Source: Streptomyces noursei ATCC 11455
Lineage (GTDB): Bacteria; Actinomycetota; Actinomycetes; Streptomycetales; Streptomycetaceae
Length of the DNA stretch: 64,000 bases
NCBI RefSeq assembly: GCF_001704275.1
Contig: NZ_CP011533.1
Span: forward strand, 1,922,001-1,986,000
Direction: 5' to 3'
A program made the position numbers and the translations under genes. Every line of letters begins with the position of its first letter. Position 1 is the first letter of the stretch. The notes beneath the pieces were generated by a model that was given only the letters and a program-made list of their open reading frames with translations, had not been told where the DNA came from and ran no database searches. Of the stretch, positions 9,723-61,006 are shown in pieces.

Positions 9723-9775
9723 GCCGCCGCCCCGTCCCCGCCCGGTCCCCCTTTCCCCCCAGGAGGCAGCGCCCC

Positions 9776-45003: not shown

Positions 45004-45660
45004 TCACCTCCTGGGGAGCGGCAAAGAACGGTGCCATTCAAAGAAAACAGGAAAGACCGAGCGCAGCACCCGGAAGGCAGATATTCCACCGCGTACCGTC
45101 CCGATGCGCACGAGTTCATGGTCCGGAGCGTCCACGACCACCCGGACGGCCGCAACCGCGCGGCTGCCGCAGCGCACCGCCGTCCGGAGCGTCGCGGCGG
45201 ACTCCATGTCCACCGCGATCGCCCCCTCGGCGTGCAGTGCGGCCCGCTCCACGCCCCGTACGACGTGGTCGGAGCCGCGCAGCAGTCCGCGGTGCACCCG
45301 CAGGCCCCGCTCCCGCAGGGCGCGCACCAGGGGGCCGTTGTCCGGGCAGGGCACGTCGGGGACGTCGGGCCGGTGGTCCCGGGTGGCCTCGGCGACGATC
45401 ACGTCGCCGGGCCGCATCCCGGGAACCAGCCCGGCGCAGAAACCGCTGGCCACGACGGCCGAGCCGGCGGTGGCCGAGCCCGCACCCAGCGCGGCGGCGA
45501 CGGCGCGCTCCGCGGCCCGGGGGCCCATGCCGGTGCGGAGGGTGACCGCGGGGGAACCCGTCGTCCTCAGATCACCGCCCCGCAGCGCGAACCGTTCGAT
45601 GCCGAGCGCACAGGCGACGAGCAGCGGCGGATCCGCGTCCGGCGGGGGCCGTCTCGGCAT
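45004..45660 (-). CDS. hpnG: Adenosylhopane nucleosidase/phosphorylase HpnG
   Basis: 218 residues of the nucleoside phosphorylase superfamily: VVASGFCAGLVPGMRPGDVI and AVDMESAATLRTAV (the purine-base/ribose Glu motif) are clear. HpnG removes adenine from adenosylhopane to give ribosylhopane. Its ATG shares one base with the shc stop (TGATG), so the two are coupled. Slightly shorter than many family members; the active-site segments are intact. Confidence 0.9.
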   Translation of the reverse strand: MPRRPPPDADPPLLVACALGIERFALRGGDLRTTGSPAVTLRTGMGPRAAERAVAAALGAGSATAGSAVVASGFCAGLVPGMRPGDVIVAEATRDHRPDVPDVPCPDNGPLVRALRERGLRVHRGLLRGSDHVVRGVERAALHAEGAIAVDMESAATLRTAVRCGSRAVAAVRVVVDAPDHELVRIGTVRGGISAFRVLRSVFPVFFEWHRSLPLPRR

Positions 45661-47750
45661 CAGTCCCCCACCGGTGCCCCGGCGGTTCCGCCGGCGGCCG
45701 GTCCGCCGTGGACGTAGCGGCCGAGGGCGGTCAGCGGGAAGACCTGGCGGTAGAGGTGGTAGTTGATGGAGAAGTCCCACGGGAAGCCGGTGCCGGTGAA
45801 GTACGGCTCGTCCCAGGAGCCGTCCGGCAGTTGGGTCTCCACCAACCAGCGCACCCCGCGGCGCACCGCCTCGCCGTCCCGCTCGCCGGCCGCGAGCAGC
45901 GCCATCAGCGCCCAGGCGGTCTGCGAGGCGGTGGAGGCGCCGCGCCCGGCCCAGCGCTCCTTGTCGTGGTACGAGCGCTGGTCCTCGCCCCAGCCGCCGT
46001 CGTCGTTCTGCACCCGCTCCAGCCAGCTGACGGCCCGTCGGACGGCGGGGTGCGAGGCGGGGATCCCGGCGGCGGCCAGGGCCGGCAGCACCGAGCCGGT
46101 GCCGTAGACGTAGTTGGTGCCCCAGCGTCCGAACCACGCGCCGCAGGGCTCCTGTTCGGCCAGCAGCCAGGCGAGGCCGCGGCGGGCCCGCGGGTCGTGC
46201 GCCCGGCCGACCTCGGCCAGCATCTCGACGACATGGGCGGTGACGTCGGCCGAGGGCGGGTCGATGACCTCGCCGAAGTCGCAGAACGGCAGCCGGTTGG
46301 GGAACGGGCTGGTGTTGTCGGCGTCGAACGCGCCCCAGGCGCCGTTCTTCGACTGCATCCCGACGTTCCACCGCACCGCGCGGTCGATGGCGGCCTCGAC
46401 CCGCTCCGGGTCGGGGTGCCGGACCCGGAGGAGTGCCAGGACCACCTCGGCGGTGTCGTCGATGTCCGGGTAGTTGTCGTTGTGGAACTCGAACGCCCAG
46501 CCCCCGGGGGGGAGTTCGGGGCGCCGCACGGACCAGTCGCCGGGCCGGTCGATCTGCTCGCCGAGCATCCAGTCGGCGGCCCGGACCAGCTGCGGGTGGT
46601 CGGCGGGCACCCCGGCGTCGGCCAGCGCGATGGCGGCCAGGCAGGTGTCCCAGACCGGGGACTGACACGCCTCGATCATCCGGGCGCCGTCCTCCCGCCA
46701 CACGGCGAACCGGTCCAGGGATTCCAGGCCGGCCCGCAGCACCGGGTGGTCGAGGTCGTAGCCGAGCAGGTGCAGGGCGATGACGGAGTAGACGGCGGGG
46801 GGCTGGATGCCGCCCCAGCAGCCGTCGTTCTCCTGCCGTTCGATGATCCAGCGGGCGGCCGAGCGCATCGCGGCGGCACGCGGCCGGCGCAGGGCGACCT
46901 TGTGGTACAGGTGCAGCGCCTTGTCCAGTCGCTGGAAGAGGCCGTCCCAGCTCGCGACGGGGGCCAACGGCCGGGGCGGGTTGGGGTTGCCGCCGAACAG
47001 GGCGCGCAGCGCCTTCCGACGAGGGCGGTGGTGGGCGACGCGTGGGTCGGCGTGCAGCTCGTCGAGGGCGAACGGCGCCGGGCGGACCGGGCGTTTGGCC
47101 GAGACGATGGTCAGCGGGACGATGGTCTGCCGGGCCCAGCAGCCGAAGGCGTAGATGCTGAGCGGGAACCACTTCGGGAAGTAGATGAGCTCCGGGGGGA
47201 GTTCGGGCAGGTCTTCCCACTTCCACCAGCCGAAGAGGGCCAGCCAGATCCGGGTGAAGACCCGGGAGGCGGCGATGCCGCCGCGCTCGCGGATCCAGCC
47301 GGAGGCGGCGGCCATGTGCGGGGCGTCCGGCTCATCGCCGGCCAGCCGCAGCGCCACGTACGCCTCGATGGTGGCGGAGAGTTCGCCGGGGCCGCCGTGG
47401 AAGGTGGCCCAGGTGCCGTCCTCGCGCTGCTCGCCGCGGATGTGACGGGCGGCGGCCTCGGTGATCCCGGGGTCCTGGATGCCCAGGAACTGACGGAGCA
47501 GCAGGTCCTCGGCGTCCATCGTGACGTTGGTCTCGAGGTCGCCCTTCCACCAGCCGGCGGGGTCCTGGAGGGAGAGCAGGTGATCGGTGGCGCGGGTGGT
47601 CGCTTCCCGCGCGGCGTCCGCCGTGTCCTGGAGCACGGCGGTGCCCGGTCTGCCGTCCGGGCCGGCCTGTGCGGTCTCGGCGGCGGCATCGGTGGCCGAG
47701 GAGCTCCGGGGCGGGAGCGCCCCGGAGCTGCCGTCGGTCGTCGCTGTCAT
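45660..47750 (-). CDS. shc: Squalene-hopene cyclase
   Basis: 696 residues, full length. The catalytic acid motif DIDD is at 429-432 (NYPDIDDTAEVVLAL), and QW repeats are visible (QEDGTWAT-like at 108-115, QENDGCWGG at 306-314, QNDDGGWGED further on). It folds squalene into hop-22(29)-ene and diplopterol at the membrane; the non-polar plateau carries the Phe/Trp-rich FPKWFPLSIYAFGCWAR. AAGGGGA precedes ATG 47750. Its substrate comes from hpnC-D-E in the same operon. Confidence 0.95.
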   Translation of the reverse strand: MTATTDGSSGALPPRSSSATDAAAETAQAGPDGRPGTAVLQDTADAAREATTRATDHLLSLQDPAGWWKGDLETNVTMDAEDLLLRQFLGIQDPGITEAAARHIRGEQREDGTWATFHGGPGELSATIEAYVALRLAGDEPDAPHMAAASGWIRERGGIAASRVFTRIWLALFGWWKWEDLPELPPELIYFPKWFPLSIYAFGCWARQTIVPLTIVSAKRPVRPAPFALDELHADPRVAHHRPRRKALRALFGGNPNPPRPLAPVASWDGLFQRLDKALHLYHKVALRRPRAAAMRSAARWIIERQENDGCWGGIQPPAVYSVIALHLLGYDLDHPVLRAGLESLDRFAVWREDGARMIEACQSPVWDTCLAAIALADAGVPADHPQLVRAADWMLGEQIDRPGDWSVRRPELPPGGWAFEFHNDNYPDIDDTAEVVLALLRVRHPDPERVEAAIDRAVRWNVGMQSKNGAWGAFDADNTSPFPNRLPFCDFGEVIDPPSADVTAHVVEMLAEVGRAHDPRARRGLAWLLAEQEPCGAWFGRWGTNYVYGTGSVLPALAAAGIPASHPAVRRAVSWLERVQNDDGGWGEDQRSYHDKERWAGRGASTASQTAWALMALLAAGERDGEAVRRGVRWLVETQLPDGSWDEPYFTGTGFPWDFSINYHLYRQVFPLTALGRYVHGGPAAGGTAGAPVGD

Positions 47751-47856
47751 GGCTTCCCCTTCTGCAGTGAACTGTCAATGCGTGTTCAGGGATTCCGTCG
47801 GCCGACGCCGAAACGGCGCCGGCCGGCGACTGCGATCTAGTGCGTGTCGATGGTCA

Positions 47857-48972
47857 TCATCTCTCTCGTACGACGACGAAGTCCGCGAGCGCAACCAGTT
47901 GCGTGCGGACCCGTTCCGGCATGTCGATCTCGTCCAGGGCGGCGATCGCGGTGGCGTGCTGCCGGCGGGCCTCCTCGGAGGTCCACTCGCGGCCGCCGGC
48001 CTCCTCGATCAACGCCGCGCGGGAGGCGAATTCTTCCTCGGTGAAGTCGGCGATCTCGGTCTCGCTCTTCTTGGCGTCGGCGGCCAGGATCTCGGCGAGC
48101 CGCTCGGAGGCGGGCCCACCGGCGGCGAGCGATGCCACGACCGGCAGCGACTTCTTGCGCTGCCGCAGGTCGCTCCAGGTCTGCTTGCCGGTGGCCTCCG
48201 GGTCGCCCCAGATGCCCAGCAGGTCGTCCACCGCCTGGAAGGCGAGGCCGAGGTGGTAGCCGTACTTCTCCAGGATGTCGGCGGTGTGGTCGTCGGCGCC
48301 GCCGAGGACCGCACCGATGGAGACCGCACAGGCGAGCAGGGCGCCGGTCTTGTTGCCCTCCATCTCCAGGCACTCCTCGACGGTGACCCGCTCGCGGTGC
48401 TCGTAGGAGATGTCCTGGGCCTGACCGTCGATCAGCTTGCGGGTGGCCAGGGTCAGTCGGCGGGTGGCGCGGCCGGCGTCGACGGTGCCGAGCTCCAGCA
48501 GTATTTCGTTGGCCAACGCGAACAGCGCGTCGCCGACCAGGATGGCCTGGGCGGGGCCGTGCACCTTCCATACGGTGTCGCGGTGCCGGCGCTGTTCGTC
48601 GCCGTCCATCAGGTCGTCGTGCAGCAGCGAGAAGTTGTGCACCAGCTCGACGGCGACCGCACCGGGCACGCCGACCGCGGGGGCGGCACCGGCGACCTCG
48701 GCGGACAGCAGGGCGAGCGCGGGCCGCACCGCCTTGCCGCCGTCACCGGCGCTGGGCTTGCCGTCCGCGTCGATCCACCCGAAGTGGTAGGCGGCGACGG
48801 TGTCCATGGGAGGGGCGAGCCTGGCCACGGCGGCACGCAGCACGGGAGTGGCGAGTGTCCGCCCGCGCTCCAGCAGCGCGGTGACGCTCGCGGTGTCGAT
48901 AGCCGGGGAAGCCACGGTTTCTCCTCTGTTTCCGATGCTTGTGCTCGTGCGAGCGCCCGTATGCACGGTCAT
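47857..48972 (-). CDS. Polyprenyl diphosphate synthase of the hopanoid operon
   Basis: 371 residues, all-alpha trans-prenyltransferase. First Asp-rich motif LLHDDLMDGDEQRRH, second FQAVDDLLGIWGD. It elongates IPP/DMAPP, most likely to farnesyl diphosphate for HpnC/D, although the size is also typical of actinobacterial geranylgeranyl synthases. ATG 48972 overlaps the hpnE stop as ATGA and has AGGAGG five bases upstream. A 106-base gap follows before shc. Confidence 0.85.
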   Translation of the reverse strand: MTVHTGARTSTSIGNRGETVASPAIDTASVTALLERGRTLATPVLRAAVARLAPPMDTVAAYHFGWIDADGKPSAGDGGKAVRPALALLSAEVAGAAPAVGVPGAVAVELVHNFSLLHDDLMDGDEQRRHRDTVWKVHGPAQAILVGDALFALANEILLELGTVDAGRATRRLTLATRKLIDGQAQDISYEHRERVTVEECLEMEGNKTGALLACAVSIGAVLGGADDHTADILEKYGYHLGLAFQAVDDLLGIWGDPEATGKQTWSDLRQRKKSLPVVASLAAGGPASERLAEILAADAKKSETEIADFTEEEFASRAALIEEAGGREWTSEEARRQHATAIAALDEIDMPERVRTQLVALADFVVVRER

Positions 48973-50438
48973 GCCGCCTCCTGAGGCAACTGGCCCTGGG
49001 GGACGCCGAGTTCGGTGAGTGCTGCACGGGCGGCGGCGGTGCCGCTGCGGACGGCGCTCTCCATGGTCGCGGGCCACCCGGTGGCGGTCCACGCACCGGC
49101 CAGGAACAGGCCGGGGACTTGGGTGCGGGCGGCCGGGCGGAGCCGGCCGACGCCCGGTGCGGGTGCGAAGGTCGCGGTGCGCTCGCGGGTGACGAAGAAA
49201 TCGAGGATCCGGGCGCCCCGGGCGGCCGGCAGCAGCCGTTCCAACTCGGGGAGGTAGCGGGCACGGAGTTTGGCGACCGGCTGGTCGATCTCCTCCTGCG
49301 CGGCCGACTGCGAGAGGGCCAGGTACTGGCTGCGTGCGTGGCCGGCCGTACGGGACAGCCCGGAGGCGCCGGTGCGGTCGAAGACCCACTGGACCGGGGT
49401 GCCGACCGCCGCGAAGAACGGGCGGCGCACCACCCTGCGGTCGTAGATGACGTGGACGTTGAGGATCGGCGCGGTGCCGATGTCCAGCAGTCGGTCCTTG
49501 GTGGGCAGTGCGTCCTCGGGCAGCAGGGCGTGCGCCTCGCGCTGCGGTACGGCCAGGACGACGGTGTCCGCGGTGAGCGTCTCCCGGCCGTGCGGGCCGT
49601 TCTCCACCGCGACCTGCCAGCCGGCGTCGTCGCGGGTGACGGCGGCGGCCCGGGTGCGCAGGGCGATCCGGACGCCGGCCTTGCGCAGCGCGTCGGCGGC
49701 CCGGGTGTCGTGCACGTCGCCGAGCGGCACCCGGGCCCAGCCGATGTCGGCGGCGCCGGGGGCGGAGAGCAGCCCGGTCTTGAAGACCTTGGCGGCCAGC
49801 CCCAGCGAGGCGTCACCGGCGGAGGCGTTGAGGGTGGCGACGCCGACCAGGTCCCACAGCGCTTCGACGGCCCGCGAGGTCTGCCCGTGGCGGCGCAGCC
49901 AGCTGCCGAAGTCGACGGCGTCCAGCGCGGGGTCGGCCGGGTCCAGGCGGCCGAGGGCGAGGGTGGCGCGGACCACGCCGGCGCGCTCGACGGGTGAGAG
50001 GTGCGGGTAGAGCGCCAGGCTCTTCGCCAGGTGGAGCGGGACCGGCAGGGCGGTGCGCCGCAGCCGGCCGAGCCGCATCCGGCCCCCGGCGCCGGCAGGG
50101 TCGAGGACCGGTACGTCCATCCGGTCCTGGAGGGGCGCCAGGCGTTCCGCGCCGAGCCGTTCGAGGTGGTCGCCGTAGGCGGTGCAGCAGCGGAGATAGA
50201 CGTGCTGGCCGTTGTCGACGGTCAACGGGCCGACGGCGGAGTCGCGGCGGAAGGAGAAGACCAGGCCGCCGAGCCGCGGCCGGCCCTCGACCAGCGTGAC
50301 CCGCAGTCCCGCGTCGGCCAGGGCCAGCGCGGCGGTGGTGCCCGCGAGTCCGCCCCCGATGACCACCGCGGCCGCCCCTTCGGGACGGCCGGAGGGACGG
50401 GCGGAGTCGTGGCCGGGCAGCGTGGTTCCTGCTGTCAT
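48969..50438 (-). CDS. hpnE: Hydroxysqualene dehydroxylase HpnE
   Basis: FAD amine-oxidase/phytoene-desaturase fold, 489 residues. Amino-terminal FAD motif VVIGGGLAGTTAALALADAG with VEGRPRLGG; the carboxy-terminal flavin block is LFLAGAWTATGWPATMESAV. HpnE reduces hydroxysqualene (from HpnC) to squalene. ATG 50438 has GGGGGGAG upstream. A 100-base gap separates it from hpnD; no promoter or terminator is evident in it. Confidence 0.95.
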   Translation of the reverse strand: MTAGTTLPGHDSARPSGRPEGAAAVVIGGGLAGTTAALALADAGLRVTLVEGRPRLGGLVFSFRRDSAVGPLTVDNGQHVYLRCCTAYGDHLERLGAERLAPLQDRMDVPVLDPAGAGGRMRLGRLRRTALPVPLHLAKSLALYPHLSPVERAGVVRATLALGRLDPADPALDAVDFGSWLRRHGQTSRAVEALWDLVGVATLNASAGDASLGLAAKVFKTGLLSAPGAADIGWARVPLGDVHDTRAADALRKAGVRIALRTRAAAVTRDDAGWQVAVENGPHGRETLTADTVVLAVPQREAHALLPEDALPTKDRLLDIGTAPILNVHVIYDRRVVRRPFFAAVGTPVQWVFDRTGASGLSRTAGHARSQYLALSQSAAQEEIDQPVAKLRARYLPELERLLPAARGARILDFFVTRERTATFAPAPGVGRLRPAARTQVPGLFLAGAWTATGWPATMESAVRSGTAAARAALTELGVPQGQLPQEAA

Positions 50439-50538
50439 GCGGTCTCCCCCCTTACGCCTGTCATGGACGCCTCCGCCCGACGAAGGGTTGCCCGCCGCAC
50501 CGACGCCGGACCGTGGTCGGTGTACGCGGTCCGACGGT

Positions 50539-51495
50539 TCATCCACGCCTCCTGCTCACGGCCTGCCGGCGGCCGATCGCCCGGGCGTCGAGCCCGGAGA
50601 GCCCGCGCACCGCGACGAACGCCTTCTCCCGGCCGGGCAGCGAGACCCGGCCGCGGAGCACCGCCTCGGGGTCGTCGGCGATCCGGGACAGCAGCCGGTG
50701 GTAGATACCGGCCATCGCCGCCACGCACGCGCCGCTGCGCCGGTCGAGCATGGGCAACAGCCGGAAGCCCTCGGCGAACAGCGCGCGGGCCCGCCGGACC
50801 TCGAACTGCACCAGGCCCGTGAAGTCCGCGCCGGGCGGCGGCACCGGGCCGTGAAACCCCGCCGAGCAGCCGAACTTGGCGAGATCCTCGGCCGGAAGGT
50901 ACGTCCGCCCGTTGCCCGCGTCCTCGCGAACGTCCCTGAGGATATTGGTCAGTTGGAGTGCGAGCCCGAGCGTATCGGCGTATTCCGGGGCGCGTTCGGC
51001 GTCGAATGCGCCGGGTACGGTGCCGAACACACCGAGTGAGAGCCGGCCGATCGCCCCGGCGACGCAGCGGCAGTAGACCTTGAGCTCGTCCCAGGTCTCG
51101 TAGGTCTCGCCGCGGACGTCCGCCAGCACCCCGTCGATCAGCTCGTCGAGCGCGTCGAGCGGGACGGGGAAGCGCCGGGCGGTGTCGGCGAGCGCCACGG
51201 CCACCGGGTCGGTGTCGTCCTCGGCGATCCGGCCGTCCTTGATCCGGGCGAGCAGGGCGCGGGTGTCCTCCAGGCGCCGGCCCTTGGCGTCGGGGGGCAG
51301 GGCGCCGTCGCCGATGTCGTCCACCCGGCGGGAGAAGGCGTACAGCGCCGACATGGCCTGCCGCTTGTCGGCCGGCAGCAGCCGGATCCCGTACGCGAAA
51401 TTGCGCGCCTGCTGCCCGGTGACCGTTTCGCAGTAGCGGTACGCAGCGAGCACCGGCGCGGACATCTGTGCGGTTGCCTCCACGGTCCGACTCAC
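50539..51495 (-). CDS. hpnD: Presqualene diphosphate synthase HpnD
   Basis: 318 residues, squalene/phytoene synthase family. Asp-rich motifs FSRRVDDIGDG and LTNILRDVREDAGNGRTYLP (DxxED). HpnD condenses two farnesyl diphosphates to presqualene diphosphate. GTG 51495 overlaps the hpnC stop as GTGA; ATG 51465 with GGAGG upstream is an alternative, but the coupled start keeps the family amino terminus. Confidence 0.95.
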   Translation of the reverse strand: MSRTVEATAQMSAPVLAAYRYCETVTGQQARNFAYGIRLLPADKRQAMSALYAFSRRVDDIGDGALPPDAKGRRLEDTRALLARIKDGRIAEDDTDPVAVALADTARRFPVPLDALDELIDGVLADVRGETYETWDELKVYCRCVAGAIGRLSLGVFGTVPGAFDAERAPEYADTLGLALQLTNILRDVREDAGNGRTYLPAEDLAKFGCSAGFHGPVPPPGADFTGLVQFEVRRARALFAEGFRLLPMLDRRSGACVAAMAGIYHRLLSRIADDPEAVLRGRVSLPGREKAFVAVRGLSGLDARAIGRRQAVSRRRG

Positions 51496-52442
51496 CCCTC
51501 TCGTCGCAGTGTCGCCCCTACCTCGCGCAGCAGGCTGAGCTTGGTCGGTTTGGGCGGTCCAGGGAGTACGTCGTGATCGGCGGCCGCGACCGCCTGGAGC
51601 GCGGCGCGCCCACCGGCGACGAAGCCGGCCAGCAACAGCTTGAGCCTGCCGTGCACGCTGCCCACCAGGGGCGCGCCCTCGTCCAGCAGCTCACCGGCGC
51701 GTTCCGCCTCGAAGGCGATCAGTGCGCGCACCGAGGCGTCCCCGGTCGGCGCGGCCAGGTCGGCCTCGGTGACGCCGAATCGTTTCATGTCCTCGGCGGG
51801 CAGGTAGATCCGGTCCCGGCCGAGGTCCTCGGTCACGTCCTGGAGGTGCTCGACGAGCTGCAGCGCGGTGCAGATGGCGTCGGAGAGCCGGATGCGCTCG
51901 GGGCTGGAGGTGCCGGTGACGCCGAGGACGAGCCGGCCTACGGGGTTGGCGGACAGCTCGCAGTAGGCGGCGAGGTCGTCGTAGGTGCCGTAGCGGCTGA
52001 TCCGCTGGTCCTGGCGGTTGGCCTCGATGAGGCCGAGGAAGGGCTCGGGGGTGAGCGCACAGCGGCGGACGGTCGGGCCGAGCCGGCGCATCAGCGGGTG
52101 CTTGGGGCCGGGCGCACGGTCGCTGAAGACCCGGTGCAGGTCCGCCTCCAGGGCGTCGAGCAGCGCCAGGCGGTCTTCCCCGTCCTGGGCGCGGTCCAGA
52201 CCGAGGAGGACGGCGTCGCCGCCACCGGGCGCCAGGTCGCCGTCGCCGATGTCGTCGACGAGGCGGGCGAAGCCGTAGAGGGCCATCAGGTCGGCGCGCC
52301 AGGCGCGGGGCAGGAAGAACGGGGCAACCGGGAAATTCTCGTGCGCGGCCTGATCGAGCACGGTGCGTGTGTGGTCCTTCCCGCCACCCACCGCCACCCT
52401 CCGGGGGAAGGCGCGACGCGCCCGCTCGTCTCGTCGGCTCAC
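51492..52442 (-). CDS. hpnC: Hydroxysqualene synthase HpnC
   Basis: 316 residues, squalene/phytoene synthase family. Motifs ARLVDDIGDGD and LVEHLQDVTEDLGRDRIYLP. HpnC converts presqualene diphosphate to hydroxysqualene. First gene of the hopanoid operon. The GTG at 52442 has GGGAAG upstream; a later GTG (VAVGGGKDHTRT) would remove 15 residues and cannot be excluded. Confidence 0.9.
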   Translation of the reverse strand: MSRRDERARRAFPRRVAVGGGKDHTRTVLDQAAHENFPVAPFFLPRAWRADLMALYGFARLVDDIGDGDLAPGGGDAVLLGLDRAQDGEDRLALLDALEADLHRVFSDRAPGPKHPLMRRLGPTVRRCALTPEPFLGLIEANRQDQRISRYGTYDDLAAYCELSANPVGRLVLGVTGTSSPERIRLSDAICTALQLVEHLQDVTEDLGRDRIYLPAEDMKRFGVTEADLAAPTGDASVRALIAFEAERAGELLDEGAPLVGSVHGRLKLLLAGFVAGGRAALQAVAAADHDVLPGPPKPTKLSLLREVGATLRREG

Positions 52443-52799
52443 CGGGGGCTTCCCGGCGCGTTGTGGAGCCGGAGCGAACCAGTAGCCATTGCCGTCACGT
52501 CTCCCGTTCTACACCGCCGGACAAAACATCCCATTTCGGACACGCCGCAGCGTGGGGGCACCTCCCGCCCGAGCGTAGTCGACAGGGGGAGGCGCACTCC
52601 GGACGAGCTTCCGCCGCTCGCCCGGGTGAAGATTGCCCGACTTGCACCACTTGTGCTGTTTCAGTACCCGTACAGCTTACGCCGCGCATCGCACGCGCAT
52701 CCGGGCGGGCTCGGAAGCCTCGGGCAACGATCTGGTCAACGTCGCACGTGGGCCAACTGTTCCCGAGCCCCGCCGAGTTGACCATTCCTTCACCATCGA
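52443..52799. other. Promoter region of the hopanoid operon
   Basis: About 360 bases without a supported gene between hpnC and the ABC exporter operon. The stretch around 52500-52560 is less GC-rich (ACAAAACATCCCATTTCGG) and most likely holds the hpnC promoter. No clear -35/-10 pair could be assigned. Confidence 0.5.
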
Positions 52800-52830
52800 A
52801 GGCCCCCGCGAACCGGACTCGCGAGGGCCT
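52800..52830 (-). terminator. Hairpin terminator of the envelope operon
   Basis: AGGCCCCCGCG / CGCGAGGGCCT, one mismatch, 9-base loop, 16 bases past the stop of the ABC ATPase gene on the minus strand. It ends the seven-gene operon. Confidence 0.8.
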
Positions 52831-52845
52831 CCTGCGAAGGAGGGG

Positions 52846-53649
52846 CTATTTGCCCGTCTCCTTCTCGTACGCCTTGATGACCTCGTCCGTCGGGCCGTCC
52901 ATCAACAGCTCGCCCCGCTCCAGCCACAGCACGCGGTCGCAGGTGTCCCGGATCGAGTTGTTGTTGTGGCTGACCAGGAAGACCGTACCCGCTTCCTTGC
53001 GCAGCTCGCGGATGCGGGCCTCGGAGCGCTTCTGGAAGGCCCGGTCGCCGGTGGCCAGCGCCTCGTCGATCAGCAGCACGTCGTGGTCCTTGGCCGCCGC
53101 GATCGAGAACCGCAGTCGGGCCGCCATACCGGACGAATAGGTGCGCATCGGCAGGGAGATGAAGTCGCCCTTCTCGTTGATCCCGGAGAAGTCGACGATG
53201 TCGTCGTAGCGGGACCGGACCTGCTCGCGGGACATGCCCATCGCCAGACCGCCCAGGATGACGTTCTTCTCGCCGGTGAGGTCGTTCATCAGGGCGGCGT
53301 TGACGCCCAGCAGCGAGGGCTGGCCGTGGGTGTAGACCTTGCCGCGCTCGGCGGGCAGCAGTCCGGCGACGGCCTTGAGGAGGGTCGACTTGCCGGAGCC
53401 GTTCGAACCGATCAGGCCGATCGACTCGCCGCGGTAGGCGGTGAAGGAGACACCCTTGACCGCGTGCACCTCGCGCATGCCCACCGACGGCCGGCGCCGG
53501 ATGATGCGGCTCAGTGCCGCGGTCGCGCTGCCCTTGCCCGCACCGGTGCCGTAGACCCGGTAGACGATGTGCAGCTCGTCCGCGATCACGGTCGGGATCC
53601 GCTCCTGCGTCGCCGTCGTCGACGGGACGCCGTCCATCTGCTCAGCCAC
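52846..53649 (-). CDS. ABC-2 exporter ATPase (TagH / O-antigen export type)
   Basis: 267 residues. Walker A GSNGSGKST (81-89), signature YSSGMAARL, Walker B VLLIDEALATGD, switch His in VFLVSHNNN. The amino-terminal MREVHAVKGVSFTAYRGE and the DEALATGD block are typical of ATPases that export teichoic acids, O-antigens or other polysaccharides. GTG 53649 overlaps the permease stop by eight bases. Acts with the permease to move a lipid-linked glycan or polyol-phosphate product out (inference). Confidence 0.9.
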   Translation of the reverse strand: MAEQMDGVPSTTATQERIPTVIADELHIVYRVYGTGAGKGSATAALSRIIRRRPSVGMREVHAVKGVSFTAYRGESIGLIGSNGSGKSTLLKAVAGLLPAERGKVYTHGQPSLLGVNAALMNDLTGEKNVILGGLAMGMSREQVRSRYDDIVDFSGINEKGDFISLPMRTYSSGMAARLRFSIAAAKDHDVLLIDEALATGDRAFQKRSEARIRELRKEAGTVFLVSHNNNSIRDTCDRVLWLERGELLMDGPTDEVIKAYEKETGK

Positions 53650-54580
53650 GTCCGTACCGCTCCTCAGCCTTCCAGAAGTACACAAAGCCCGCGACGCCGG
53701 CGAGCACCGCCCAGCCGAGCGCGAACGCCCACACGTGCGGCGGGAGCTGGCTCGCCTTGAAGCTGTCGATCAGCGCGAACCGGATCAGGTCGATGTAGAC
53801 CGCGGCGGGGTTGCCGTAGAGCAGCACCTCGACCCAGTGCGGGACGTGCTTGCCCTTCATGATCACGCTGATGCTGAACATCACGCCGGACGCGTACATC
53901 CACGTCCGCATGATGAAGGGCATCAGCTGCGCCAGGTCCGGCGTCTTGCTGCCGAGCCGGGCCATGACCATCGCCAGGCCGGTGTTGAACACGAACTGCA
54001 GCAGCAGCGCGGGCAGCACCAGCAGCCAGGACCAGGTGGGCACCTGGCCGAAGGCCAGCAGGATGACCACCAGCACACCCATGGAGAACAGGAGTTGCTG
54101 GAGCTGCATGAGGCAGAACGAGATCGGCAGGCAGGCCCGCGGGAAGTGCAGCGCACGCACCAGGCCGAGGTTGCCGGAGATCGCCCGCGTACCGGCCATC
54201 ACCGAGCTCTGGGTGAAGGTGAAGATGAAGACACCGGTCACCAGGAACGGGACGTAGTCCGGGACGCCCTTCCGCGTGCCGATCAGCAGGCCGAAGATGA
54301 GGTAGTAGACGAGCGCGTTCAGCAGCGGCGTCGCCACCTGCCAGACCTGGCCCAGCTTCGCCTGGCTGAACTGCGCGGTCAGCTTGGCGCTGGCGAAGGC
54401 GGAGATGAAATGCCGGCGGGCCCACAGCTGTCGGATGTACTCCGCAAGGCTGGGCCGGGCACCGCTCTGCGCCAGGTCGTACTTCTGGGCCCGCTGGAGG
54501 GGGGTGAGTCCTTCGTCGGCGGATGGCGGGGCACTCATGGCGACCGCACTGTCGTGCGTGGTCTCGCTCACAGTTGACAC
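53642..54580 (-). CDS. ABC-2 exporter permease (TagG type)
   Basis: 312 residues with six hydrophobic helices after a 60-residue cytosolic amino terminus, e.g. LLNALVYYLIFGLLIG, YVPFLVTGVFIFTFTQS, FSMGVLVVILLAFG and VWAFALGWAVLAGVAGFVYFW (ABC2_membrane family). AKLGQVWQVATPLLNA is the family opening. GAGGAC lies six bases before GTG 54580; GTG 54571 is an alternative. It forms the channel for the paired ATPase. Confidence 0.9.
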   Translation of the reverse strand: MSTVSETTHDSAVAMSAPPSADEGLTPLQRAQKYDLAQSGARPSLAEYIRQLWARRHFISAFASAKLTAQFSQAKLGQVWQVATPLLNALVYYLIFGLLIGTRKGVPDYVPFLVTGVFIFTFTQSSVMAGTRAISGNLGLVRALHFPRACLPISFCLMQLQQLLFSMGVLVVILLAFGQVPTWSWLLVLPALLLQFVFNTGLAMVMARLGSKTPDLAQLMPFIMRTWMYASGVMFSISVIMKGKHVPHWVEVLLYGNPAAVYIDLIRFALIDSFKASQLPPHVWAFALGWAVLAGVAGFVYFWKAEERYGRG

Positions 54581-54647
54581 TTTCGTCCTCAAGGTGCGCT
54601 ACCGGGGACGCCCCGGTTTGCGCCTGATGCTCTCAGATACGAGCTTG

Positions 54648-55547
54648 TCAGATGATGGGAGGGCGGCCCAGCCGGGTCAGTCGCCAAACGGTAGCCCACT
54701 TCATGGGACGCCTGGGACCGCACGGAGTGGACCAGCCCTCCTTGAAGCCGCCCAGCCAGGCCCGGAGCCCCGGCAGCGACGGCCGGCGAGCGAGGGTGAG
54801 CAGGAACCAGACGCCGAGATAGGCGGGAACCAGCGGGGCGGGGAGATTCCGGCGGGCCAGCCAGACCCGGTTGCGGGCCACCATCCGGTGGTAGACCGCG
54901 TGCCGGGCCGGGGCCGTGGTGGGGTGGTGCAGGACCATGTCCGCCCGGTAGTCGACCAACCAGCCGGCGTTCAGCGCCCGCCAGGCCAGGTCGGTCTCCT
55001 CATGGGCGTAGAAGAAGTCGTCGGGCAGGCCGCCGACCTCGGCGAACACCGTGGTGCGGACCGCGTTGGCGCCACCGAGGAAGGTGGTCACCCGTGAGGA
55101 GCGCAGCGGGTCGGAGGCGCGCAGCCGCGGCACGTGCCGGCGCTGGGTCGCCCCGGTGTCCGGGTCGGCGATCCGGAAGCTGATGATGCCGAGCTTGCGG
55201 TCCGCGGCGAACGCCTCCCGGCACAGCTCGGCGGTGTCCGCGTGGGGCAGCAGCCCGTCGTCGTCGAGGAACAGCAGCGCGTCGACGTCCCGGCCCGCCG
55301 GGCCGAACGCCTCGATGCCGACGTTGCGGCCGGCCGGGATGCCGACGTTCTCCGGCAGCTCGACGGTCCGCACGGTCAACCCCGGAACGGCCAGCTCGGG
55401 CAGCGGCGCGCCGTTGCCGACCACCACCACCTCGATCGGCTCGCCGTCCTGCTTGGCGACGGATTCCAGCAGCGCGCGCAGCTCCTCGGGGCGGTTGCCC
55501 ATGGTCAGGACAACCGCACCGAGCCGCATTCCGGGCGCCCCGGTCAC
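54648..55547 (-). CDS. Family 2 glycosyltransferase
   Basis: 299 residues, GT-A fold. VVLTMGNRPEELRALLESV opens the Rossmann half, LLFLDDDGLLPHADTAELC is the metal-binding DxD (DDD), and FYAHEETDLAWRALNAGW is the ED/EED acceptor block. The carboxy-terminal part has hydrophobic LGVWFLLTLARRPS, so it is membrane-associated. It likely adds a sugar to the lipid-linked product of this operon. GTG 55547 overlaps the preceding stop as GTGA. Confidence 0.85.
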   Translation of the reverse strand: MTGAPGMRLGAVVLTMGNRPEELRALLESVAKQDGEPIEVVVVGNGAPLPELAVPGLTVRTVELPENVGIPAGRNVGIEAFGPAGRDVDALLFLDDDGLLPHADTAELCREAFAADRKLGIISFRIADPDTGATQRRHVPRLRASDPLRSSRVTTFLGGANAVRTTVFAEVGGLPDDFFYAHEETDLAWRALNAGWLVDYRADMVLHHPTTAPARHAVYHRMVARNRVWLARRNLPAPLVPAYLGVWFLLTLARRPSLPGLRAWLGGFKEGWSTPCGPRRPMKWATVWRLTRLGRPPII

Positions 55548-56323
55548 TTGAGCCTGCTGGAGGCGAGGATGGACACGAGGTGCAGCAGGGTCTGCAGGAG
55601 CGCGATGCCGGCCAGCACCGCGACGCCGAGACGGGAGAAGAACAGGTCGCCGCGCACCGCGTCCACGATCGCCAGGACCAGGATCAGCAGGGACGCCTCG
55701 ATCCCGAGGACCAGCCGGTGGAACTTCAGCGCCGCGGCGGCCTTGCGGGCCAGTGCCAGGCCGGACGAGCGCGGCTCCGACGCCGCCTCCTTGACCGGCG
55801 GCAGGCCGCCCTGGTGACGGGCGACGCCGACGAGGTCGGTCTCCGCCTTGATCAGCATCGCGCCGACGGCGGCCAGCGTCCCGAGGAACGCCCAGAGCCA
55901 GTCGATCCGCCCGGGGCCCCACAGGTCCGCTGCGCGCAGGCCGAAGCCGACCAGCACCGCGGCGTCGCAGAGGTAGGCGCCGACCCGGTCGAGGTAGACG
56001 CCGCCGAGCGAGAACTGCTTCTTCCAGCGCGCGACCTCGCCGTCGATGCAGTCGAAGAGCAGGTAGAGCTGGACCATGACCACGCCGAGCACGGCGCCCC
56101 AGATACCGGGCACCAGCAGCGCCGGGGCCGCGAGCACGCCGAAGACGGTCATCACGTAGGTCAGCTGGTTGGGCGTGACCCGGGTGTTGACCAGGTACCG
56201 GTCGCAGCGCAGCGAGATTTCCCGCATGTAGAGGCGGCCGCCCCAGTGCTCCCCGCTGCGCCGGTCCTTCACGCCCTCGGGGTGAACGACCGGGCGGAGT
56301 TCAGCTACTGATGGTTTCGGCAT
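55544..56323 (-). CDS. CDP-alcohol phosphatidyltransferase, short form
   Basis: 259 residues, about six transmembrane helices. The CDP-alcohol motif is DCIDGEVARW (91-100) followed by GGVYLDRVGAYLCD (D112, D120), matching DG-x2-AR-x8-G-x3-D-x3-D. It transfers a phospho-alcohol from a CDP-alcohol to an acceptor. ATG 56323 lies 23 bases inside the upstream dehydrogenase gene. With the NTP-transferase and the dehydrogenase it suggests a CDP-polyol or CDP-glycerol-1-phosphate-like donor (inference). Confidence 0.85.
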   Translation of the reverse strand: MPKPSVAELRPVVHPEGVKDRRSGEHWGGRLYMREISLRCDRYLVNTRVTPNQLTYVMTVFGVLAAPALLVPGIWGAVLGVVMVQLYLLFDCIDGEVARWKKQFSLGGVYLDRVGAYLCDAAVLVGFGLRAADLWGPGRIDWLWAFLGTLAAVGAMLIKAETDLVGVARHQGGLPPVKEAASEPRSSGLALARKAAAALKFHRLVLGIEASLLILVLAIVDAVRGDLFFSRLGVAVLAGIALLQTLLHLVSILASSRLK

Positions 56324-57362
56324 AGTCGGCGTATGCGTCCCTGATCTGATCGGTGGACAGGTCCAGGTGCTCCAGGATCGTGTAGCGGCCTGGACGGGTC
56401 TTCGGGGCGAACTCGACGGCCTGCACGAACTCCTCGTCGGTGAAGCCCATGTCACCCGGGGTGACCGGCAGGCCGTGGCGCTGGAGCACCTCGACCATCA
56501 GCGCGGAGGTAGCCCGGTCCCCGCGCAGGTGGGTGGCGAAGGCGGCGGCGAGGCCGCACTGCTCTCCGTGGCTCGCCGCCCGCTTGGGGAAGAGGATGTC
56601 GAAGGCGTGGTTGATCTCGTGGCAGGCGCCGGAGGCCGGGCGGCTGTCGCCGGCCACCGACATCGAGATGCCGGTGAGCACCAGGCCCTCGGCCAGCACC
56701 TGCAGGAAGTTGTCGTCGCCGACGCCCCCGGGGTGGCGCAGCACGGCCTCGCCGGCCTGTCGGGCCATGGCCGCGGCCAGCCCGTCGATGGCCTCGCCGG
56801 TCTCGCGGTGCGACAGCTCCCAGTCCGCGACCGCGGAGATGTTGGAGATCGCGTCGCCGATGCCGGAGCGGACGAAGCGGACCGGTGCCTCACGGATGAT
56901 GTCGAGGTCGATCACCACGGCGATCGGGTTGGGCACGCCGTACGAGCCGCGGCCCGCGTCGTTGTCGAGGGTGGCGACCGGCGAGCACAGCCCGTCGTGC
57001 GACAGGTTGGTCGCGACCGCCACCAACGGCAGGCCGATGCGCGCCGCGGCGAACTTCGCACAGTCGATGATCTTGCCGCCGCCCAGGCCCACGACGGCGT
57101 CGTAGTGCCCCTTCTTCATGGCGTCGGCGAGCTTGATCGCGTCGTCCAGGGTGCCGCCGCCGACCTCGTACCACTCGGCGCCGGGCAGGGCGGGGGCCAG
57201 CCGCCGGCGCAGCCGGGCCCCCGAGCCGCCGCTGATCGCGATGGCGAGCTTGCCGGAGGCCGAGATGCGCTGGTCGGCCAGCAGACCCGCCAGGTCGTCC
57301 AGGGCGCCGGCGCTGATGTCGACGACGACCGGGGACGGGATGAGGCGGGTCAGTACTGGCAT
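56301..57362 (-). CDS. Glycerol-1-phosphate dehydrogenase-like enzyme (AraM/EgsA family)
   Basis: 353 residues of the Fe/Zn alcohol-dehydrogenase superfamily. NAD motif GGGKIID (94-100), metal ligands Asp170 in SGIGDAISN, His248 in SRPASGACHEI and His265 in ASHGEQCG. The SRPASGA-H block is the AraM/EgsA signature rather than that of glycerol dehydrogenase GldA. Reaction: dihydroxyacetone phosphate (or a similar keto phosphate) to sn-glycerol-1-phosphate. ATG 57362 overlaps the upstream gene by 13 bases. A G1P dehydrogenase in a bacterium is unusual; a related 2-keto polyol phosphate is possible. Confidence 0.8.
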   Translation of the reverse strand: MPVLTRLIPSPVVVDISAGALDDLAGLLADQRISASGKLAIAISGGSGARLRRRLAPALPGAEWYEVGGGTLDDAIKLADAMKKGHYDAVVGLGGGKIIDCAKFAAARIGLPLVAVATNLSHDGLCSPVATLDNDAGRGSYGVPNPIAVVIDLDIIREAPVRFVRSGIGDAISNISAVADWELSHRETGEAIDGLAAAMARQAGEAVLRHPGGVGDDNFLQVLAEGLVLTGISMSVAGDSRPASGACHEINHAFDILFPKRAASHGEQCGLAAAFATHLRGDRATSALMVEVLQRHGLPVTPGDMGFTDEEFVQAVEFAPKTRPGRYTILEHLDLSTDQIRDAYADYAETISS

Positions 57363-58093
57363 GCGATGTCACGGCCCTTCGCGAGGTCGTCGTGGTTGTC
57401 GATCTCGACCCACTTGACGTCGCCGATCGGCGCCACGTCGACCTTGAAGCCGCGGTTGACCAGTTCCTGGTAGCCGTCCTCGTAGTAGAGGTCGGGGTCC
57501 CGCTCGAAGGTGGTCTTCAGGGCGTCGGCCAGGTCGGCGGCGGCCTCGCCCTCGATGAGGGTGACGCCGATGTACTCGCCGGTCGCGTCGGCCGGGTCCA
57601 TCAGCTTGGTGATCTTCCGGACGCCCTTGTCGGGGTCCGCGACGACCTTCATCTCCTCGTCGGCGAGCTGCTTGACGGCGTCCAGCGCGAGGATGATCTT
57701 CTGGCCGTTGCCGCGGGCGGCGAGCAGGGTCTGCTCGACGGAGACCGGGTGCACGGTGTCGCCGTTGGCGAGGATCACCGAGTCGTGGGCCGCGATCACG
57801 TCACGGGCGCACCACAGGGAGTAGGCGTTGTTCCACTCCTCGGCCTTGTCGTTGTCGACCAGCGTGATCTTGAGGCCGTACTTCTGCTCCAGGGCCTCCC
57901 GACGCTCGTACACGGCCTCCTTGCGGTAGCCGACGACGATCGCGACCTCGGTCAGGCCGATCTCGGCGAAGTTGCCGAGGGTCAGGTCGAGGATCGTGGT
58001 CTCCCCGTCGACCGGCACCAGAGCCTTGGGCAGGGTGTCGGTGTAGGGGCGCAGACGCCGTCCGGCGCCGGCAGCCAGCACGAGGCCGATCAT
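57350..58093 (-). CDS. Sugar/polyol-phosphate nucleotidyltransferase
   Basis: 247 residues, NTP_transferase fold. The nucleotide signature LAAGAGRRLRPYTDTLPKAL opens the protein, NGDTVHP carries the metal Asp, and GDVKWVEIDNHDDLAKG is the terminal metal motif seen in choline-phosphate and inositol-phosphate cytidylyltransferases. Given the two CDP-alcohol transferases in the operon, CTP is the probable donor. ATG 58093 overlaps the preceding stop (ATGA) and has AAGGAG eight bases upstream. Confidence 0.85.
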   Translation of the reverse strand: MIGLVLAAGAGRRLRPYTDTLPKALVPVDGETTILDLTLGNFAEIGLTEVAIVVGYRKEAVYERREALEQKYGLKITLVDNDKAEEWNNAYSLWCARDVIAAHDSVILANGDTVHPVSVEQTLLAARGNGQKIILALDAVKQLADEEMKVVADPDKGVRKITKLMDPADATGEYIGVTLIEGEAAADLADALKTTFERDPDLYYEDGYQELVNRGFKVDVAPIGDVKWVEIDNHDDLAKGRDIACQY

Positions 58094-59916
58094 GCGGGTT
58101 CTCCTTCATCGTGTACGGCGGGTGCGCCGTGCTTGTGTGCGGCCACCCAGAAGCGGATGCTCTCGGCGAGCACCAGCAGCGCCAGGACCACAGCGAGTGC
58201 CGTGAGCGCGATCGTGAAACCTGTGGCGGGCAGCGGGGCGGCCAGGAAGGTGATCACGAGGATCCGTCCTTCGTGCCCGCCGGTCGCCCGGACCAGCCAC
58301 CGCGGTGGGGCCCCGGTGCCACCGCGGATGCGGTAGACCGTGTCGTAGTGATGGTAGGCGACCGCCGCGACCAGCCCGAACGCCGCGGGAAGCGCTCCGT
58401 GGGCGTCCGCGCGGGCGGCCAGCACCAGGACGGTGAGGTATTCGCCGGCCCGGAAGAAGGGCGGGACGAGCCAGTCCAGGGCGCCCTTGAGCGGGCGCGA
58501 CAGGGCCGCGGCGGCCAGCAGCGCGGAACAGAACGCGACGCCGACGGTGAGCCAGGAGGCGGGGTCGGGCTGGGAGATCAACCACACCAGCAGCATCGCG
58601 GACGAGAGAAAGGCCATAACGGGCGCCAGGAGGGAACCGGACCGGCCCCGGCCCCGGCCCCGGCCGCCGCCGGTCAGCAGCTCGACCAGCGGCCCGTAGT
58701 CGGCGAGGTCCGCGAGCGCGCGGGCGGCCCGGTCGGTGCGCCGGGCGCGGCGGGCCCGGGAGCGCAGCACCCGGCCGGCCGTGGTGTAGCAGGCGGCCAG
58801 CGCGCAGCCGACGAGCAGGGCGTAGAAGACGATGCGCGGGGTGGTGAGCGCGGTCAGCACGGCGATCATGGCCCAGCGTTCGCCGATGGGCAGCACGATC
58901 ATCCGGCGTACCCAGACGGTCCAGCCGACCTGGTCGAGCCGGTCGGACAGCGCCACCGCGGGGCCGGCGCTCCCGGCGCCGCCCTCGAATTCGCTGCCTT
59001 CGTTGAAGGCGAAGTCGACGACGTGCCGGCAGGTCTGGAGGATCATCGCGCCGAGCGCCAGCGCCCACACGTCGTCGCCGCCCCGGGCGGCCCCGAGGGC
59101 GAGCCCCGCGTAGTACGCGTATTCCTTGGCGCGGTCGAAGGTGGCGTCCAGCCAGGCGCCCAGCGTCGAGTACTGCAGCGAGTAGCGGGCGAGCTGCCCG
59201 TCGGTGCAGTCCAGGACGAAGGAGAGCAGCAGCAGCACGCCGGCGGCGACGAAGCCGCCGCGGCTGCCGGTGGCCGCGCAGCCCGCCGCGATCAGCGCGG
59301 TGAGCAGGGAGGCGGTGGTGACCTGGTTGGGGGTCAGGCCGCGGCGCGCGCACCAGCGGGCGAGGTAGCGCGAGTACGGGCTGATGAAGAAGGTGGTGAA
59401 GAAGCCGTCGCGGGACTTGACCGCGGTGCGCAGCCGGACCGCCTCGTCGTCGACGGCCGCGACGGCCTCGCGGGCCTCCGACCGCTGGTCGGGGGTGAGC
59501 GCGAGGGTGCCGACCAGGCTGCCGAGCTCGACGCGGTGCAGTCCGACGTCCGCGCGGTCCAGCGCGTCGGTGAGGGTGTCGGTCAGCACGTCGGTGAGGT
59601 GGGCGGTGCCGGCGCCGACCGGGATGCGACCGGCCGCGCGGTCCAGCGCGGCGCGGGCCCCGGCCTGCACGGTGAGTACGCCGGGCACTGCCGCGGCCGG
59701 GAAGCGGGGGTCGGTCAGGGCGAGCCGCAGGGCGTGCAGGTGACCGACGAAGCGCGGGTCCACCAGGGCCACCCGCTGCTGGGCGGGCACCTCGGCGAGC
59801 AGCTCGGTGACGCCGCCGGGGTCACTGGCCGTGCGGATGTCGAAGCCCAGTGTGCGCAGGTCGGCTTCGAGCGACGACCCGGCGACCGGCGGACCGGTGA
59901 GGATGGCGGTCGACAG
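58090..59916 (-). CDS. CDP-alcohol phosphatidyltransferase, long form with extra N-terminal domain
   Basis: 608 residues if read from CTG 59916. A 175-residue amino-terminal cytosolic domain of unknown fold (LTGPPVAGSSLEADLRTLGF, then VALVDPRFVGHLHALRLAL) precedes the membrane part. The CDP-alcohol motif is LDCTDGQLARYSLQYSTLG with later WLDATFDRAKEY. Eight to ten helices in all. The first ATG/GTG in frame is GTG 59790, but the 42 codons upstream look coding, a stop lies at 59923-59925, and AAGGAG sits nine bases before CTG 59916. First gene of the seven-gene envelope operon. Confidence 0.8.
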   Translation of the reverse strand: MSTAILTGPPVAGSSLEADLRTLGFDIRTASDPGGVTELLAEVPAQQRVALVDPRFVGHLHALRLALTDPRFPAAAVPGVLTVQAGARAALDRAAGRIPVGAGTAHLTDVLTDTLTDALDRADVGLHRVELGSLVGTLALTPDQRSEAREAVAAVDDEAVRLRTAVKSRDGFFTTFFISPYSRYLARWCARRGLTPNQVTTASLLTALIAAGCAATGSRGGFVAAGVLLLLSFVLDCTDGQLARYSLQYSTLGAWLDATFDRAKEYAYYAGLALGAARGGDDVWALALGAMILQTCRHVVDFAFNEGSEFEGGAGSAGPAVALSDRLDQVGWTVWVRRMIVLPIGERWAMIAVLTALTTPRIVFYALLVGCALAACYTTAGRVLRSRARRARRTDRAARALADLADYGPLVELLTGGGRGRGRGRSGSLLAPVMAFLSSAMLLVWLISQPDPASWLTVGVAFCSALLAAAALSRPLKGALDWLVPPFFRAGEYLTVLVLAARADAHGALPAAFGLVAAVAYHHYDTVYRIRGGTGAPPRWLVRATGGHEGRILVITFLAAPLPATGFTIALTALAVVLALLVLAESIRFWVAAHKHGAPAVHDEGEPA

Positions 59917-60363: not shown

Positions 60364-60390
60364 TTGACACCGACGACCGACGACAAGGAT
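60364..60390 (+). promoter_or_regulatory. Candidate idi promoter
   Basis: TTGACA (60364-60369) is a perfect -35 hexamer; AAGGAT 15 bases further on (60385-60390) is a poor -10 and also overlaps the idi ribosome binding site, so only the -35 is convincing. Confidence 0.3.
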
Positions 60391-60394
60391 GGGC

Positions 60395-61006
60395 ATGCCG
60401 ATCACACCTGCCAACGGACAGACCGCCGGAGCCTCCGCGGTGGGCGCGCCGGAGGGCGCCGCCGAGCCGATCATGCTGGAGCTGGTCGACGAGGACGGCA
60501 CGACGATCGGCACCGCGGAGAAGCTCGCGGCGCACCAGGCTCCCGGGCAGTTGCACCGGGCGTTCTCGGTCTTCCTCTTCGACGAGAAGGGGCGGCTGCT
60601 GATCCAGCGCCGGGCGCTGTCGAAGTACCACTCCCCCGGTGTGTGGTCCAACACCTGCTGCGGTCACCCGTACCCGGGCGAGACGCCGTTCGCGGCGGCG
60701 GCCCGGCGGACCGCGGAGGAACTCGGGGTCGCCCCCGCGCTGCTGGCCGAGGCCGGGACGGTGCGCTACAACCATCCCGACCCGGACTCCGGGCTGGTGG
60801 AGCAGGAGTACAACCACCTGTTCGTGGGGCTGCTGCGGACCGAGCCGGCGCCGGAGCCCACCGAGATCGCCGAGGTCGCGTTCGTCACGCCGGAGGAGCT
60901 GGCCGAGCGGCATGCCCGGCTGCCGTTCTCCGCGTGGTTCATGACCGTGCTGGACGCGGCGCGTCCGGCGGTCCGCGAGCTCACCGGCAAGTCGGCGGGC
61001 TGGTAG
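60395..61006 (+). CDS. idi: Isopentenyl-diphosphate delta-isomerase, type I
   Basis: 203 residues, Nudix fold. Active-site Cys89 in VWSNTCCGHPYPGE and catalytic Glu138 in EQEYNHLF; YHSPGVWSN is the metal-site segment. It isomerises IPP and DMAPP to supply the prenyl synthase of the neighbouring hopanoid operon and general isoprenoid needs. AAGGA lies seven bases before ATG 60395; ATG 60389 is possible. Its last 26 bases overlap the convergent ATPase gene. Confidence 0.95.
   Translation: MPITPANGQTAGASAVGAPEGAAEPIMLELVDEDGTTIGTAEKLAAHQAPGQLHRAFSVFLFDEKGRLLIQRRALSKYHSPGVWSNTCCGHPYPGETPFAAAARRTAEELGVAPALLAEAGTVRYNHPDPDSGLVEQEYNHLFVGLLRTEPAPEPTEIAEVAFVTPEELAERHARLPFSAWFMTVLDAARPAVRELTGKSAGW

Follow-up and report, generated by a model that had tools for sequence, protein, structure and literature searches.

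We analysed a window of 64,000 nucleotides from the genome of Streptomyces noursei ATCC 11455 (GCF_001704275.1; NZ_CP011533.1, positions 1,922,001 to 1,986,000), which lies on a single contig of 9.8 Mb. Its minus strand carries a seven-gene operon, running from 59916 to 52846, that encodes two cytidine diphosphate (CDP)-alcohol phosphotransferases (designated CDPOH1 and CDPOH2), a nucleotidyltransferase (NTP), an EgsA/AraM-like dehydrogenase (EgsA), a GT2 glycosyltransferase and a TagGH-like exporter, in the 5′ to 3′ order CDPOH1, NTP, EgsA, CDPOH2, GT2, TagG and TagH. We lean towards reading it as an assembly line of the teichoic-acid type, whose product would be a glycosylated, lipid-linked glycerol-phosphate surface molecule. 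The original prediction had described such an operon with these domains, and all seven genes and their domains were found with Pfam and NCBIfam:

58090 to 59916, minus strand: CDPOH1 (608 amino acids; CDP-OH_P_transf and DUF5941), with a TTG start at 59916 behind AAGGAG
57350 to 58093, minus strand: soluble nucleotidyltransferase (NTP_transferase; PF00483/PF12804)
56301 to 57362, minus strand: EgsA/AraM-like dehydrogenase (Fe-ADH_2; PF13685, E = 4.6e-28)
55544 to 56323, minus strand: CDPOH2, a six-helix CDP-alcohol phosphotransferase (CDP-OH_P_transf) with Ala in place of the fourth signature Asp
54648 to 55547, minus strand: GT2 glycosyltransferase (Glycos_transf_2, PF00535)
53642 to 54571, minus strand: TagG/Wzm-like ABC-2 permease (ABC2_membrane, PF01061)
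52846 to 53649, minus strand: TagH/Wzt-like ATPase (ABC_tran, TagH type)
52700 to 52845, minus strand: strong hairpin 3′ of tagH from a computed fold, a possible terminator lacking a U tract

The seven-gene operon is real. In gene order, its first four junctions are overlaps of 4, 13, 23 and 4 nucleotides; the GT2/permease junction is a gap of 76 nucleotides, and the permease and ATPase genes overlap by 8 nucleotides. Contigs were scanned for CDPOH2, and the best 80 of at least 583 confirmed relatives, all titled Streptomyces, formed the locus set. Overlap lengths projected from tblastn alignments indicate that the 4-nucleotide CDPOH1/NTP overlap is kept in 76/76 loci, the 13-nucleotide NTP/EgsA overlap in 78/78 and the 23-nucleotide EgsA/CDPOH2 overlap in 70/80. 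Because these lengths are kept across the Streptomyces loci, the overlaps are not due to chance. The CDPOH2/GT2 junction is variable (−10 in 36 and −4 in 10 of the 80 loci), and a GT2 homologue stands by CDPOH2 in every locus. As for the terminator said to close the operon, the region 52700 to 52850 folds into a strong hairpin (−81.2 kcal/mol, z = −3.86), but it has no U tract and no entry in the consensus terminator scan.

Gene order across Streptomyces, the comparison that the original prediction had suggested, proved well conserved: idi, the seven genes, hpnC, hpnD and the squalene-hopene cyclase (SHC) gene are intact in 64 of the 80 loci, and idi adjoins the operon in 75. Among the 16 loci without the full order, ten are short, ended by contig ends, five are short of the SHC match alone, and one (L108) has idi and the complete operon followed by unrelated genes. 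The EgsA-like dehydrogenase is present in all 200 sampled Streptomyces genomes (completeness ≥95). The S. noursei CDPOH2 is 97% identical to a sequence in a Streptomyces diastatochromogenes record and 95% identical to one labelled S. celluloflavus. The synteny itself is not new, since a 2026 survey of 929 genomes reports conserved clusters of CDP-alcohol transferase, GT2 and nucleotidyltransferase genes near crtB, tagH, tagG and araM; its available text names “teichoic acid” and offers no mechanism (PMC13118837). Two individual loci may be recorded here. The Streptomyces cavernae assembly has the whole operon on two contigs (L038 and L039), at identical locus coordinates and with equal identities, which may reflect a duplication in the assembly. 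Another Streptomyces genome (L028, 1953-4187) has a 744-residue opposite-strand frame, apparently MMPL-transporter-like, that separates tagH from the same-strand genes beyond it.

The EgsA/AraM-like enzyme is probably an sn-glycerol-1-phosphate dehydrogenase. Against the NCBIfam model of this enzyme (PRK00843) it scored 237.7 bits (E = 1.8e-70), under the curated cut-off of 413, and the glycerol dehydrogenase model gave 87 bits. Its D170, H248 and H265 align with glycerol-1-phosphate dehydrogenases (4rgq and 3ce9); we take them to be the Asp, His and His metal ligands, in agreement with the earlier statement that all ligands are present. The best Protein Data Bank (PDB) relative of the nucleotidyltransferase is LicC, a cytidine triphosphate (CTP):phosphocholine cytidylyltransferase (E = 2.7e-14), and its relatives also include PntC and 4jd0, presumably an inositol-1-phosphate cytidylyltransferase. 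The protein is probably a CTP:polyol-phosphate (glycerol-1-phosphate) cytidylyltransferase.

CDPOH1 consists of a cytidylyltransferase-like domain (residues ~1-157), a CDP-alcohol phosphotransferase core (~171-393) and the DUF5941 part. The 175-residue N-terminal domain had been called novel; the structural model instead shows a known fold, a degenerate cytidylyltransferase-like domain shared with Archaeoglobus Af2299 and IPCT-DIPPS. In the same model the remainder resembles the CPT1/CEPT1 fold, with a match that extends over DUF5941 and additional C-terminal helices in the cholinephosphotransferase arrangement. The eight-residue signature D1xxD2GxxAR...GxxxD3xxxD4 is complete, including D4, in 76/76 loci with the gene. 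According to one structural report, those CDP-alcohol transferases that act on lipid acceptors carry additional helices at the C-terminus, and CDP-glycerol is taken or bound by Af2299 (PMC4634129). For the exporter, the nearest NCBIfam model of the ATPase is TagH PRK13546 (E = 2.1e-51, 174.8 bits, under the cut-off of 320), and that of the permease is the galactan export Wzm family (61.6 bits, under the cut-off of 380).

The search for relatives outside Streptomyces covered a sample of the phylum comprising 396 genomes (12 Streptomyces and 384 others). CDPOH2 relatives (>250 bits) and the close EgsA clade (>440 bits) were each found in 12/12 Streptomyces and 9/384 other genomes, and seven genomes outside Streptomyces have both. 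One of these blocks, from another family (L146), keeps the whole order CDPOH1-DUF5941-NTP-EgsA-CDPOH2-GT2-TagG-TagH, with DUF5941 as a separate frame. GT2 adjoins CDPOH2 or lies one gene off in 9/9 non-Streptomyces genomes, with CDPOH1 between them once. Two genomes with CDPOH2 only (L148 and L149) have the CDPOH2-GT2 pair, and in two with EgsA only (L193 and L194) other CDP-OH genes adjoin EgsA. TagGH-like matches occur in the fetched stretches of 7/9 CDPOH2 genomes (for G108 in L025, on the same contig). Genes of the TagF family (PF04464) lie near CDPOH1 or CDPOH2 relatives in L026 (383 bits, strong), L025 (83 bits, fair) and L148 and L149 (25-26 bits, barely above the cut-off of 22.1). Separately, EgsA/AraM-like dehydrogenases with lower scores, about 200-240 bits, are common in one actinobacterial family of the sample (f9; e.g. 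G001, G017 and G135).

From the genes, their conservation, the family and fold assignments and the links to TagF- and TagGH-type genes, the following substrates, order of steps and product are predicted. The EgsA-like enzyme would reduce dihydroxyacetone phosphate to sn-glycerol-1-phosphate, and the LicC/PntC/IPCT-like enzyme would convert it to CDP-glycerol of the sn-1 type. CDPOH1 would then move glycerol phosphate from this soluble donor to a membrane alcohol (diacylglycerol, a glycolipid or a polyprenol-linked sugar). CDPOH2, with its constant partner GT2, might form a second phosphate linkage, by extension or onto a phosphate acceptor; GT2 would glycosylate the product, and TagGH would flip it outward. 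The earlier outline of reduction, activation, transfer, glycosylation and export fits the protein families, the conservation outside Streptomyces and the teichoic neighbours, but its two serial transfers are not established, as CDPOH2 is without the fourth catalytic aspartate. Our proposal is narrower than that outline in taking the polyol phosphate to be glycerol-1-phosphate and the product to be of the teichoic-acid type, which the sequence comparisons make, in our judgement, slightly the better bet.

Several observations, besides the sub-threshold score of the dehydrogenase, weigh against this proposal. Neither a TagF-type polymerase nor an initiating enzyme of the TagO/TagA type is encoded in the operon; TagO of S. 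coelicolor is SCO5365 (PMC7300013). The CDPOH2-GT2 genomes L148 and L149 have no EgsA match in the phylum sample. The extra helices of CEPT1 are described as a dimerisation domain (PMC10156783), and therefore those of CDPOH1 need not imply a lipid acceptor. In favour of the proposal, the S. noursei genome has four PF04464 proteins (one weak), all outside the operon, and EgsA and the nucleotidyltransferase are the sole candidate found there for CDP-polyol supply, because that genome gave no TagD match (TIGR01518, E ≤ 0.01), a negative that rests on a first look passing no candidate to scoring, and no TarI was recognised among its IspD-family matches, which we assigned to IspD, GlmU and a MobA-like protein. 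Against this, across the 200 Streptomyces genomes, none has TagD TIGR01518 above the curated cut-off and 133 have it below (best 71 bits), so that a second source of CDP-glycerol may exist there. The six best of these matches (L202-L207) adjoin another CDP-OH transferase and a glycosyltransferase-like frame, and would represent a second, separate CDP-alcohol system.

A further difficulty concerns CDPOH2. Of the signature it retains the aspartates D1, D2 and D3 together with the glycines, Ala and Arg, but it has lost D4, which is Ala in 80/80 Streptomyces loci and His in the 9/9 other genomes. In phosphatidylinositol phosphate (PIP) synthase D4 presumably serves as the catalytic base, and its replacement by Asn (D93N in MtPIPS) left almost no activity while binding was retained (PMC4634129). 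CDPOH2 could accordingly be a pseudoenzyme or partner subunit, with CDPOH1 alone catalysing, an explanation that is compatible with the teichoic-acid-type reading and that we regard as rather unlikely, our estimate for it being non-exclusive. The intact remainder of the signature argues for an active enzyme, as does the CEPT1 D158A mutant, which keeps about 15% activity (PMC10156783). The median identity of CDPOH2 (90%), the highest among the operon proteins in the 80 loci, also speaks against decay, although these loci were chosen by CDPOH2 itself. Three explanations can be offered: CDPOH2 may be a partner subunit, may employ a different base, or may have an acceptor (e.g. polyprenyl phosphate) that requires none. 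The last option belongs to a more specific and tentative proposal, a third glycerol-phosphate teichoic route that would combine sn-1 CDP-glycerol, of opposite hand to the TagD product, with cholinephosphotransferase-like transfer and TagGH export; here CDPOH2, having no catalytic base, would act on an acceptor that is ionised beforehand, for instance undecaprenyl phosphate. We hold this possible, short of probable. CDPOH2 paralogues that are 51-52% identical and also have Ala at D4 occur in two Streptomyces genomes (L144, 9605-10342; L145, 9598-10356), and no other operon protein had a match in the fetched stretches around them.

The operon might alternatively make a membrane phospholipid or glycophospholipid, in which sn-1 CDP-glycerol and diacylglycerol would give phosphatidylglycerol or a glycosylated form and TagGH would be a lipid flippase, with no polymer. 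The modelled CPT1/CEPT1-like fold of CDPOH1 and the lack of a polymerase in the operon would suit this, and such a reaction would yield the head group found in normal phosphatidylglycerol, as we infer from PMC7086022. We consider it unlikely, as in relatives the linkage to TagGH-like exporters and to PF04464 genes suggests polymers, and five other CDP-OH matches in the S. noursei genome, two of them strong and full-length, could supply ordinary phospholipids.

Another alcohol is quite improbable. The EgsA-like enzyme would then reduce a pentulose or tetrulose phosphate, or the head group would be 2-glycerol or inositol, with a linkage like those made by archaetidylinositol phosphate synthase (AIPS) or DIPP synthase. 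These two families do give the best scores for CDPOH1 and CDPOH2, and 4jd0, presumably the inositol-1-phosphate enzyme, is among the nucleotidyltransferase relatives; however, the scores stay below the curated cut-offs of both families, the dehydrogenase is nearest to glycerol-1-phosphate dehydrogenases, and the operon has no inositol enzyme by Pfam.

The operon is flanked by the following genes:

60389 to 61006, plus strand: idi-like NUDIX gene (PF00293), the upstream neighbour, outside the pathway
45660 to 52442, minus strand: downstream hopanoid genes (two SQS_PSY, an FAD oxidoreductase, a polyprenyl synthase and squalene-hopene cyclase; Pfam)

That the operon serves hopanoid biosynthesis, by providing a polar side chain or head group, is very improbable: hpnC adjoins it in 73/80 Streptomyces loci, but no hpnC, hpnD or SHC match was found beside the non-Streptomyces relatives fetched, and L108 has the complete operon beside unrelated genes. 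The functional link implied earlier was therefore dropped, and because related blocks in other actinobacterial families lack hopanoid genes, the comparison identifies these genes as positional neighbours.

Returning to the teichoic-acid-type reading, its interest lies in a gap in Streptomyces envelope biosynthesis. Polyglycerolphosphate lipoteichoic acid occurs in some Streptomyces; that of S. hygroscopicus carries glucosaminyl substituents, and the 2011 paper on it notes that clear LtaS orthologues were absent from the actinobacterial genomes then sequenced (PMC3196553). The absence is not phylum-wide, since Bifidobacterium bifidum has an ltaS homologue according to a 2025 paper (PMC12286996). 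In S. noursei, the LtaS superfamily (PF00884) gave 0 matches at E ≤ 0.001 with 3 candidates scored and a positive B. subtilis control. For Streptomyces, this operon offers a candidate lipoteichoic route: a genus-wide pathway would fit the LtaS gap, and it predicts a measurable stereochemistry. The building block in B. subtilis is sn-glycerol-3-phosphate for wall teichoic acid but sn-glycerol-1-phosphate for lipoteichoic acid, and stereospecific GlpQ cleaves sn-3 glycerol-phosphate chains while leaving intact sn-1 chains uncut (PMC7086022). CDP-glycerol derived from EgsA would be of the sn-1 type, and therefore a product exported by TagGH would share the stereochemistry of lipoteichoic acid, in organisms that have neither LtaS nor TagD. 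If this is true, sn-glycerol-1-phosphate, the archaeal lipid backbone, enters a bacterial envelope polymer.

With the wall teichoic acid pathway (TagO-A-B-D-F-GH), the predicted pathway would have in common a cytoplasmic CDP-activated polyol phosphate, glycosyltransferase decoration and TagGH-type ABC export. In contrast, the place of TagB/TagF is taken by integral-membrane CDP-alcohol transferases and that of TagD by EgsA and a LicC-like enzyme; the operon has no initiating enzyme, and the predicted glycerol phosphate is sn-1 rather than sn-3. A second EgsA (74% identical) in one Streptomyces genome (L195, G334:C1:847000-866900, 9382-10506) is flanked by an RNase E/G gene on one side and on the other by rplU, an rpmA-like frame and obg, and both a GT2-TagF protein and a glycosyltransferase resembling TarS are encoded nearby; this locus resembles the S. 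griseus wall teichoic locus, which is anchored on L21/L27 (PMC13274773). The LtaS pathway shares the predicted sn-glycerol-1-phosphate stereochemistry and a lipid anchor, but uses phosphatidylglycerol as an extracellular donor, whereas a cytoplasmic CDP donor is predicted here.

The AraM/PcrB route, which leads to heptaprenylglyceryl phosphate, likewise starts from sn-glycerol-1-phosphate made by an AraM-type dehydrogenase. There it is prenylated, whereas here it would be activated with CTP; PcrB/GGGP synthase gave 0 matches in the S. noursei genome (12 candidates scored). Af2299 and IPCT-DIPPS combine, as does CDPOH1 in the model, a cytidylyltransferase-like N-terminal domain with a CDP-alcohol phosphotransferase. 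They have six helices and a soluble acceptor, whereas CDPOH1 has a further C-terminal helical part and the operon adds a separate, intact nucleotidyltransferase gene. The eukaryotic CPT1 and CEPT1 share with the CDPOH1 model the overall fold, including the C-terminal helices, and presumably the use of a soluble CDP-alcohol donor. CDPOH1 differs in its N-terminal degenerate cytidylyltransferase domain and in its predicted alcohol, glycerol, and would, if the assignment is true, be a bacterial addition to the enzymes of cholinephosphotransferase fold.

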